Positions 29,708 through 63,010 of a stretch of DNA of 64,000 bases are shown here, one piece after another. This DNA comes from Roseinatronobacter sp. S2. GTDB taxonomy: Bacteria > Pseudomonadota > Alphaproteobacteria > Rhodobacterales > Rhodobacteraceae. The stretch covers positions 614,501-678,500 of the forward strand of contig NZ_CP121113.1 in the NCBI RefSeq assembly GCF_029581395.1. The letters are read 5' to 3'. Under the pieces are notes generated by a model. It ran no database searches. It had not been told where the DNA came from and saw only the letters and a program-made list of their open reading frames with translations. The translations under genes were made by a program, and so were the position numbers. The first letter of the stretch is position 1, and each line of letters starts with the position of its first letter.

Positions 29708-29885
29708 GCGGACCCAAAAGTGCGGAGCAAAGGCCGCAGGCCGCCGCGCCATCGGCGGGCCGTCCCGCGGCCTGCCGATACCCGCTGGCTGCACGCCAAG
29801 TCTTGGGTGTTCGGGTGTGCCGCCTGTATAAAGTGAACTTCTATAACGTTGGATCGGCAGACCCCGGCCCGCCGATAGCGCGGGC
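29708..29885 (-). repeat. Dispersed intergenic repeat, copy 1
   Basis: About 178 bases, inverted relative to copies 2 and 3 (41543-41715 and 62759-62931). It has an outer perfect inverted repeat ATCGGCGGGCCG (29751-29762) / CGGCCCGCCGAT (29865-29876) and an inner one CTGCCGAT (29772-29779) / ATCGGCAG (29853-29860). The centre holds a conserved GAAGTTCACTTTATACAGG on the minus strand. It fills the gap between convergent iorB and dnaE2. No transposase or good open frame is present. Confidence 0.85.
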
Positions 29886-41474: not shown

Positions 41475-41542
41475 CCGGATAAGGTGAAATGGTCTGGTGG
41501 GGTGATTGTTGCGCTATTACTGACATTGTGGCCATGGATGAA

Positions 41543-41715
41543 GCCCGCGCCAGCGGTGGGCCGGGGTCTGCCGATCCGGCGTTGGTGAAGTTCACTTTAT
41601 ACAGGCTGCATACTCCTGTGTTCAAAGGCTTGGCGTGTCGCTGGCCAAATCGGCAGGCCGCGGGACGGCCCACCGATGGCGCGGCGGGCTGCGCCCTTGA
41701 TTCCGCGCCTTGGGC
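41543..41715 (+). repeat. Dispersed intergenic repeat, copy 2
   Basis: 173 bases, about 90% identical to copy 3 by eye and clearly related to copy 1. Outer stem CGGTGGGCCG (41554-41563) / CGGCCCACCG (41666-41675), inner stem CTGCCGAT (41568-41575) / ATCGGCAG (41649-41656), and GTGAAGTTCAC palindrome in the loop. It lies between convergent VOC and GNAT genes; the remainder of the 300-base gap shows nothing else. Confidence 0.88.
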
Positions 41716-41774
41716 ATTCCACATGACCGCATAAGGCCAAAATCAGCCGTAGATTTTGCGCCGCGCAGGTGCAG

Positions 41775-60978: not shown

Positions 60979-62676
60979 ATGCATAAGCCGCAAGTTTCGG
61001 CAGGGGCTGCGCTGCTGGCGCGGCTGAAATCCGTGGGCGTCGATTATATTTTTGCAAATTCCGGCACGGATTTTCCACCCATCATCGAGGGGCTTGCAGA
61101 AGCCACCGCCAAGGGCATGCCACTGCCTCATGCGCTGACGATCCCGCATGAACATGCTGCCATGGGTATGGCGCACGGGTATTATCTGGCCACGGGGCGG
61201 GCACAGGCGGTCATCGCGCATACGGATGTGGGCCTTGCGAATTGCGCCATCGGGGCGCTGAATGCCTATGTGGAACATGTGCCGATCCTGCTGTTTTCGG
61301 GCCGCACGCCGACTGTTGAAAAGGGCCGTTTCGGGGCGCGGACGGTGCCCATTGGCTGGGGGCAGGAAATGCGCGACCAGACATCGCTGGTGCGCGAAGC
61401 CACCAAATGGGATTATGAATTACGCTTTCCCGAACAGGTGCCCGATCTTGTGGACAGGGCGCACGCCATCGCATCATCCACGCCGCGCGGTCCGGTTTAT
61501 GTGTCGCTGCCGCGCGAAGTGCTGTGCGAACCCTGCCCCACTGAAGGGGTGGATGCCCCGCCCAGGATGCGGGCACATGGCGCGCATGCCGCCCCGGATG
61601 ACATTGCCGAACTGGCCCGGTTGATTGCGCAGGCAAAATTTCCTGTGATCTTCGCGCAGCGTGGTGCAGGCAACGCGCAAGGCTTTGCCGCGCTGGACAG
61701 GATGGCGCGGGACTGGGCGATTCCTGTGTGCCAGTACTGGGCCAACCAGCTTGCGCTTGCGACCGACCACCCGATGGCGGCCCCCGCAGATGGCGGCCCC
61801 CTGCTGGCGCGCGCCGATCTGGTGATCTGTCTGGATACGCTGGCACCATGGATGCCCGCCGCACATGAACCGCACGCGGACGCAAAGGTGGTGCAGATTG
61901 GTCCGAACCCGTTGTCACAACGCACGCCAATTCGCAATTTCCGCGCGGATATGGCCCTGTCCAGCGATGTGGCGCCAGCGCTTCTGGCGTTGGAGCGGGC
62001 CTTGGCATCGCATGCACCGGACGCTGGCGTGGCCGCGCGGTTTGATGACATCGCCGCCAGCAATCGGGCGGCGCGCAACGCAGCCCTTGTGGCCGCCGCG
62101 CCCGATGACGCGCAGGGCATGACCAAGGACCAGATCGCGCGCATGGTGTCGGATGCCCTGCAAGGCGATGATGCGACCGTCTTTTCCGAACTGGGCTGCC
62201 CGATGGCATCCATGCGTCTGACCCATGCGCAGGCGTGGTATCAAGAACCCCATGCGGGCGGGCTTGGCTGGTCGTTGCCAGCGGCCATGGGGTTGCAACT
62301 GGCCGCGCCCGACAGGCTTGTTGTCGCCACGATGGGGGACGGGACATATATGTTCGCAAATCCTGTGGTCTGTCACCAGATTGCAGAGGCGCTGAACCTG
62401 TCCATTCTGATTGTGGTGCTGAACAACAATGAATGGGGTGCGGTGCGGCAATCGGTGGTAGGCCTGTATCCTGATGGCTATGCCGCACGCGCCAATCAGG
62501 TGCCGCTGACGGGCCTTGCGCCCAGCCCCGATTTTACGATGGTCGCGCAAGCGTCCCGTGCGTTGGCCATGAAGGCTGCGGACCACGCGCAATTCGCCGA
62601 TGCGTTGCAAAAGGCGCTGGTCCATATTCGCGCGCGCAAGGGCGCGGCCTTGATCGATGTGCGCACACGGCCTTGA
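60979..62676 (+). CDS. Thiamine diphosphate-dependent enzyme (acetolactate synthase/benzoylformate decarboxylase-like)
   Basis: A 565-residue ThDP enzyme with three domains. The N-terminal domain has the catalytic glutamate in TIPHEHAAMGMAHGY (about residue 52). The C-terminal domain has the ThDP-binding motif MGDGTYMFANP followed by LNNNEWGAVRQ, with GGLGWSLPAAMGLQLA before it. Reaction could be decarboxylation of a 2-oxo acid (benzoylformate type) or a carboligation; sequence alone does not decide. GGGAGAA precedes the ATG. It lies 334 bases from the convergent YciI-LigB genes. Confidence 0.88.
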   Translation: MHKPQVSAGAALLARLKSVGVDYIFANSGTDFPPIIEGLAEATAKGMPLPHALTIPHEHAAMGMAHGYYLATGRAQAVIAHTDVGLANCAIGALNAYVEHVPILLFSGRTPTVEKGRFGARTVPIGWGQEMRDQTSLVREATKWDYELRFPEQVPDLVDRAHAIASSTPRGPVYVSLPREVLCEPCPTEGVDAPPRMRAHGAHAAPDDIAELARLIAQAKFPVIFAQRGAGNAQGFAALDRMARDWAIPVCQYWANQLALATDHPMAAPADGGPLLARADLVICLDTLAPWMPAAHEPHADAKVVQIGPNPLSQRTPIRNFRADMALSSDVAPALLALERALASHAPDAGVAARFDDIAASNRAARNAALVAAAPDDAQGMTKDQIARMVSDALQGDDATVFSELGCPMASMRLTHAQAWYQEPHAGGLGWSLPAAMGLQLAAPDRLVVATMGDGTYMFANPVVCHQIAEALNLSILIVVLNNNEWGAVRQSVVGLYPDGYAARANQVPLTGLAPSPDFTMVAQASRALAMKAADHAQFADALQKALVHIRARKGAALIDVRTRP

Positions 62677-62758
62677 TTTCAGCTTGTGATACGGGTTTGT
62701 TCAGATCTGGTTGAATGGCCGGTTTATGGCCTTTTGCGGTCATTCGCGCGGGGACTAA

Positions 62759-62931
62759 GCCCGCGCCAGCGGTGGGCCGGGGTCTGCCGATCCGACGCCA
62801 GTGAAGTTCACTTTATGCAGGCGGCATACTCCCAAGATCAAAGGCTTGGCCTGTCATCAGCCAAATCGGCAGGCCGCGGGACGGCCCACCGATGGCGCGG
62901 CGGGCTGCGCCCTTGATTCCGCGCCTTGGGC
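62759..62931 (+). repeat. Dispersed intergenic repeat, copy 3
   Basis: 173 bases, about 90% identical to copy 2 with most differences confined to the loop side (around 62795-62845). Outer stem CGGTGGGCCG (62770-62779) / CGGCCCACCG (62882-62891). It lies between convergent ThDP-enzyme and YciI genes; nothing else is seen in the 334-base gap. Confidence 0.88.
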
Positions 62932-63010
62932 GCTTTCCTGATGTCCCCTTCAGGCCAGTATCAACCAGCCTTGCGTGTCCGCCTGACGCGATCAAGCCTT
63001 GGCGCTGGCC

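Follow-up and report, generated by a model that had tools for sequence, protein, structure and literature searches.

Why do copies of one short repeat lie between the 3′ ends of convergent genes, and what kind of element is it? The question is raised by a 64,000-nucleotide stretch of the Roseinatronobacter sp. S2 genome (the window), in which an initial annotation, made from the letters alone, marked a 173-bp repeat in three convergent gaps and took it for a non-autonomous element that either targets or is tolerated at such ends, or works as a two-way transcription stop. The host is an alkaline-spring bacterium with a genome of 4,445,845 bases in six contigs, of which the main chromosome (C1) holds 3,479,920; its genus stands in the Rhodobacteraceae in record titles and in the Paracoccaceae at NCBI. 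Six circular contigs are described in the available part of the genome report (PMC10508151), so the host's own copies sit in a finished assembly. All three copies were present where the initial annotation had placed them, between the genes it had named (an iorB-like molybdopterin-binding protein and a dnaE2-like DNA polymerase III alpha type, a VOC-family glyoxalase and a GNAT protein, and a ThDP (TPP) enzyme and a YciI (YCII) protein), in convergent gaps of 267, 300 and 334 bp:

29708..29885, minus strand: copy 1 core, between the iorB-like and dnaE2-like genes (169.5 bits, profile positions 40–246)
41543..41715, plus strand: copy 2 core, between the VOC and GNAT genes (262.7 bits)
62759..62931, plus strand: copy 3 core, between the TPP-enzyme and YciI genes (267.8 bits)

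The three align with a mean column identity of 86% across 224 columns. Allowing up to three mismatches, the 3′ motif of the element matched three times in the window (0.05 expected) and the 5′ motif seven times (0.11 expected); six of the latter matches fall inside the three copies, in each of which the two arms are alike, and one, at 61795, is unrelated.

Across the genome, the 3′ motif with up to three mismatches occurs at 115 places (57 forward, 58 reverse) and the 5′ motif at 106. A profile built from 30 copies identified at least 106 full-length copies (≥120 bits) in stretches around 112 listed places; this is a lower bound, with up to ~15 further motif places outside the stretches examined, and short or partial forms occur besides. 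Of 86 exact 3′ motifs among the matches listed, C1, which makes up 78% of the genome, carries 84. When copies are anchored on the core (101 and 100 of the 106 for the two sides), conservation extends from ~41 bp to its left to ~40 bp to its right. The length of 173 bp is thus apt for the core, but most copies are longer: in 82 of the 106, the core is flanked by two recognisable inverted arms of ~18 bp, which fall into two types, TGGCCTTTTGCGGTCATT and TGGCCTGAAGGGGACGTT. These arms, like the family-wide structure and the exchange of occupants described below, had no place in the initial annotation. In the window, the arms of copy 1 are poor (9 and 12 of 18 positions), and those of the other two copies are as follows:

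41510..41527, plus strand: copy 2 left outer arm, degenerate (12 of 18 to type A)
41722..41739, minus strand: copy 2 right outer arm (16 of 18 to type A)
62727..62744, plus strand: copy 3 left outer arm, type A (18 of 18)
62940..62957, minus strand: copy 3 right outer arm, type B (16 of 18)

The case for the arms as a selected base-paired stem is weak: in the 82 of 106 copies, left and right arms pair weakly above chance (11.5 versus 11.0 pairs; 37 of 5000 permutations), and the excess of flank complementarity over mismatched pairs is slight for copies of other genera (mean rank 0.41, n = 69) and barely present for the host's own (mean rank 0.47, n = 104). In some short forms the centre is missing, in a manner compatible with deletion between ATCGG repeats, and at one site (L226) the outer palindrome stands alone. 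One variant copy (L178:2890-3100) carries an inner loop that, by eye, is the reverse complement of the usual one, and forms a near-perfect hairpin.

The location bias seen in the window extends to the whole genome. With genes predicted by a codon-usage finder made for this analysis rather than taken from annotation, 81 of the 106 full copies lie in convergent gaps, 23 in tandem gaps, 2 in divergent gaps and none inside a predicted gene. Among control gaps, drawn from the window and two 20-kb stretches chosen where no copy was listed, 10 of 87 are convergent, and 3 of these 10 carry the element; with those three left out, the convergent bias has a Fisher p of 1e-22. Copies are therefore not spread evenly over gap types, and the description of the element as non-coding and non-autonomous also stands, whereas the statement that it never lies inside an operon or promoter is true of the window but not of the genome, given the tandem and divergent copies. 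In tandem gaps of the host, the element is generally closer to the upstream stop codon than to the next start; 29 tandem copies in other genomes lie at a median of 66 bp from the upstream stop and 173 bp from the next start. The orientation of the element relative to the tandem genes is the same in 9 and opposite in 14 cases in the host (hand count), and the same in 19 and opposite in 10 in other genomes. Seventy copies from 35 genomes of other genera, taken among the best-scoring matches, comprise 39 in convergent, 24 in tandem and 6 in divergent gaps and 1 unclassified, and the 39 convergent among 69 classified copies compare with 10 of 132 other gaps at the same loci (Fisher p 5e-14).

How widely the element occurs depends on the search. 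A near-exact pattern was found in 13 of 394 family genomes and 9 of 37 genus genomes, which suggested restriction to the genus; a two-mismatch pattern gave between 0 and 113 matches per genome within the genus, although it misses diverged copies. By blastn, relatives were detected in 23 of the 37 genus genomes, and the sequences matched in seven further genera turned out to represent this ~164-nt element too, with changes that are coherent. The covariance-model search of relatives that the initial annotation had proposed places the element across many genera, with matches in at least 119 of 295 family genomes and at least 118 of 294 genera (E up to 1e-5), although absences are uncertain, the survey having scored the best nine or fewer candidates per genome under strict filters. 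Every listed match covers the full model. Plasmid records yielded partial matches in 4 of 72,556, and the phage records searched yielded none. No Rfam family exceeded its threshold at the element, and sub-threshold hits vary from copy to copy; we attribute the hit to ar45 (17 bits) to chance, since other copies match other families. A SorX small RNA (RF02784, above the gathering score) lies at L279:2988-3062 on the minus strand, with a copy of the element ~1.2 kb away. Our literature search, mostly of open-access journals, found no description of this repeat family. Arms are a typical feature in the host's clade, occur patchily in other genera and may be an older, separate repeat. Outer palindromes like those of the host's clade flank some copies in other genera (L345, L357, L353).

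The core has a near-constant length of ~165 nt and folds into a long two-part hairpin (P1 and P2) followed by a small 3′ hairpin (P3), which in copy 2 map as follows (P1 and P2 from the structure on alignment A2, mapped by hand):

41547..41562, plus strand: 5′ strand of the outer core helix P1
41565..41575, plus strand: 5′ strand of the inner helix P2
41649..41659, plus strand: 3′ strand of P2
41667..41682, plus strand: 3′ strand of P1
41686..41696, plus strand: small 3′ hairpin P3 (GGSC-loop-GSCC), with compensatory G-C/C-G change
41703..41708, plus strand: CCGCGC, alternative partner of the P1 3′ strand (helix 141-147/169-174)

In a 50-sequence alignment (A2), the 31 pairs of P1, P2 and P3 are formed in 93.7% of cells. 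Double-sided changes affect 13 pairs and 100 cells, compared with a shuffled mean of 27 (0 of 500 shuffles as high) and with 2–34 cells in slid-helix controls; the aligned sequences are related, and these counts are not of independent events. We took the counts from A2 rather than from A3, which was fitted to the covariance model. RNAalifold, given no structural input, predicted P1- and P2-like helices in which 9 of 23 pairs are doubly changed in at least one sequence. Within the host genome, compensatory pairs are strong for P3 alone, and the main evidence of covariation comes from other genera. Predicted fold energies of the three window copies with 45-bp flanks range from −118 to −140 kcal/mol. 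With pair 25/117 left out, G-U pairs outnumber A-C mismatches by 59 to 12 (14 versus 4 columns, p 0.03), and the folded molecule is therefore probably a single strand of one polarity, most simply RNA, with single-stranded DNA as the alternative. In 96.6% of cells, a second CCGCGC farther downstream could also pair with the 3′ strand of P1, so two mutually exclusive folds are possible; in copy 2, it is the GCGC(GG) end of this strand that has the alternative pairing.

Comparison with relatives bears on how the copies persist. A close relative represented by a metagenome-assembled genome (MAG; coassembly_bin.17, here bin.17) has 73 elements in the loci compared, 61 with a complete interior, and 53 of the 61 lie at a distinct site where the host has a full copy (flanks ~95% identical). 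At 21 of these 53 shared sites the copy has been retained: the ortholog is the nearest own copy (>90% identical), and its orientation is without exception the same. At the other 32 it has been replaced, 17 times by an inverted copy and 15 times by one in the same orientation. Ordered by likeness to the ortholog, the inverted copies come 10th to 101st; 4 of the 15 replaced same-orientation copies rank 2nd to 8th, with identities of 0.87–0.93, and may be partly retained. A first pass over all relatives under looser rules gave 47 same-orientation pairs (23 nearest) and 29 inverted ones (0 nearest). When 12 own sites were compared with the isolate HJB301 (13 comparisons), no copy was nearest to its ortholog and 8 were inverted, so replacement is not solely a MAG artefact. 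Inversion in situ between the arms was rejected, the inverted copies never being the ortholog's nearest (0 of 17 in bin.17; 0 of 29 in all relatives), and independent new insertion at the same site is disfavoured by the 53 of 61 bin.17 copies at own full-copy sites and a further 3 at short or cut ones. The remaining five have no flank match to the own loci, which were chosen for having copies, and their sites may be unoccupied in the host; in the more distant HJB301, 11 of 26 elements have no flank match at all (hand count). The sites are old and seem rarely gained; the sequence that occupies them changes.

The limits of the replaced tract fall within the arms. In the 20 bp outside the arms, likeness to the ortholog is 0.59–0.68 for replaced copies, compared with 0.31 for random and 0.80 for retained ones, and in the first six arm bases it is ~0.82, compared with 0.70 and 0.86; outer flank and first six bases therefore stay with the site. 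Over arm bases 7–18, replaced copies are nearer to background (0.54–0.69, compared with 0.51–0.52 for random and 0.85–0.89 for retained), and these bases mostly move. The interiors are mosaics as well: among 104 own copies, linkage disequilibrium falls from an r2 of 0.31 at 1–2 bp to 0.016 at 25–49 bp (chance ~0.01), all four gametes occur in 1024 of 1326 pairs of variable sites, and alleles made of multi-base blocks occur in free combination. Recurrent mutation where sites are saturated could lower linkage disequilibrium, but alone gives no distance dependence.

Three individual loci may record further rearrangements. A tandem gap is filled by the element in bin.17 and empty in the host (L132:1680-1710, L076:1210-1368), with a 10-bp direct repeat, AGCCCGCGCC, at the ends of the insert; since this repeat equals the element's own left end, insertion and deletion are not separable here. 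At L072:1493-1737 of bin.17, one copy joins the flanks of two oppositely oriented own copies ~290 kb apart (L204, L214), the outcome expected of recombination between copies, though misassembly of the MAG is also possible. After the stop codon of the ThDP gene in a relative (L257, genome G421), the orthologous copy is interrupted by DNA with a frame that by eye is IS21-type IstA-like, and its remaining left end has the orientation opposite to that of the own copy.

The reading that we put first, and to which we give an even chance, is an old, non-coding, non-autonomous repeat of the REP/MITE kind that is tolerated at gene 3′ ends and whose copies are exchanged via their inverted arms. The ~165-nt core would act as one strand of fixed polarity, folded and most likely RNA, and is framed in the host's clade by the inverted ~18-bp arms. 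Copies would persist at gene 3′ ends, and most of all where two genes converge, since an insertion at such a place would do little damage. The sequence of each occupant would be repeatedly overwritten by ectopic exchange with other copies, through gene conversion or template switching and perhaps set off by the hairpins; such exchange would keep the copies within each genome similar. The outer arms would bound the exchanged tract and, being inverted repeats, would allow an incoming copy to land in either orientation. Of this account, the structure with its covariation, the distribution, the location bias and the replacement in roughly random orientation are observed, whereas RNA in place of single-stranded DNA, gene conversion as the route of exchange and tolerance as the reason for the location are inferred. 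Several observations count against this account. The arms are short for RecA-type exchange. Near-identical copies (≥95%) amount to 7 pairs among the 104 own copies and 2 among the 61 of bin.17, fewer donors than expected if about a third of the sites had been overwritten recently. Partial conversion should leave differences clustered, yet clustering reached significance (p < 0.05) in only 3 of 22 pairs. Finally, conservation of the structure in 118 genera suggests that the element may have a function and not simply be tolerated.

That conservation is hard to square with an absence of function and keeps in play, as a tentative alternative, a family-wide selfish structured element that serves as the single-strand substrate of a putative exchange system: a trans-acting enzyme would excise ~165-nt cassettes and reinsert them among ~100 fixed sites, with the palindromic arms as attachment sites. 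A palindromic target would by itself give random orientation, and the exchange boundary within the arms, the strand-specific fold kept by compensatory change, the bare palindrome at L226 and the site filled in bin.17 but empty in the host are all consistent with such homing. On the other hand, no enzyme was found, the Y1/RAYT transposases being the one family tested, bare targets look rare, and the mosaic interiors would need conversion as well.

A two-way transcription stop, or a protector of mRNA 3′ ends, that is useful to the host at convergent genes is less probable and in our judgement unlikely. The convergent bias in the host and in other genera, together with the very stable folds of conserved structure, would suit such a role, and when the core is included in a lax scan, a hairpin with a T-rich tail is found at 114 of 162 gene ends, so that this part of the initial annotation is conceivable. 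Yet the tails in the core run to only about three successive T, and the element does not appear to substitute for absent terminators: in the stretch from the stop codon to the core, terminator-like hairpins occur at 41 of the 162 gene ends with the element, no rarer than at convergent ends without it (23 of 84 within 120 nt, 15 of 84 within 60 nt), and these counts do not support replacement of intrinsic terminators. Moreover, one strand matters, as the G-U and A-C counts indicate, yet orientation to the genes is about even, which does not favour a two-way stop. In one relative (L260, genome G426), the same ThDP-enzyme and YciI genes converge, their stop codons overlap and the element is absent from between them; this counts against such a stop and is possibly an ancestral or deleted state. 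After the GNAT gene, element-free relatives (L235, L236, L237, L242) share another repeated terminator-like motif, resembling CAAATATCCTCAGGGGGTGAATTGG ... GAGGGGGCGCGAGCGCCCCCTT.

A multi-copy trans-acting small RNA or a chromosome-organising site is more doubtful still: the near-constant length, the covariation over many genera and the concentration of exact 3′ motifs on the main chromosome would fit, but no conserved promoter-like flank was seen by eye in other genera, two-mismatch counts vary widely within the genus, and orientation is about random.

The preferred reading, a tolerated REP/MITE-like repeat with exchanged copies, places the element beside several known families. REP/BIME elements and REPINs with their RAYT transposases are likewise high-copy intergenic palindromes at gene 3′ ends, both convergent and tandem. 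REP and REPIN units are short palindromes of 20–40 bp with a GTAG or CGTC tag, in contrast to the ~165-nt core described here. The title of a 1988 review reportedly asks whether REPs evolve by gene conversion. G-T pairing in REP elements has been used as an argument for RNA function, and the available part of the same source does not report copies being replaced at shared sites with random orientation, as seen here (PMC3733652). A RAYT partner was rejected: the Y1_Tnp domain (PF01797) is over its cut-off in 2 of 37 genus genomes (G399, G414), neither rich in copies, and in none of the copy-rich host genome (G000), G394 and G421; the host has one 30-residue fragment just below the cut-off (22.6 of 23 bits). 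The pneumococcal RUP, BOX and SPRITE repeats are non-autonomous, folded and over-represented between convergent genes, with SPRITE repeats listed as 15 convergent and 15 upstream of a CDS and the convergent enrichment explained by tolerance, according to the accessible sections of one study (PMC3049150). Their host group is unrelated, and the element described here differs in its conservation over many genera with compensatory change. Yersinia YPAL repeats are non-coding MITEs of similar size, transcribed with their neighbours. The same is stated of Yersinia ERIC and of Neisseria Correia/NEMIS elements in the portions available of two papers (PMC3733652, PMC3049150). From these MITEs our element differs in that no related transposase or clear target duplication was found.

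As in MITEs generally, the copies are short, numerous and devoid of coding capacity. Terminal inverted repeats are present in the 82 of 106 own copies and patchy in other genera. In the one occupied/unoccupied pair, a 10-bp direct repeat, identical to the element's own end, is a possible target-site duplication. An autonomous transposon with the same ends did not emerge: by eye, no close arm pair was seen among 100 of 142 arm matches listed, and two loose pairs (two mismatches; C1:1632423/1634029 and 1625109/1628796) are within chance, given 26 control matches. The repeat thus looks like an uncatalogued family of a known kind with unusual behaviour, namely fixed sites with swapped occupants.

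A repeat that is present in 118 of 294 sampled genera and has no matching Rfam family would otherwise be read as noise at gene 3′ ends. Its fixed sites, with swapping and randomly oriented occupants, make the persistence of REP/MITE-like repeats, whether by transposition, gene conversion or host function, a question that can be tested in a cultured strain with a closed genome.
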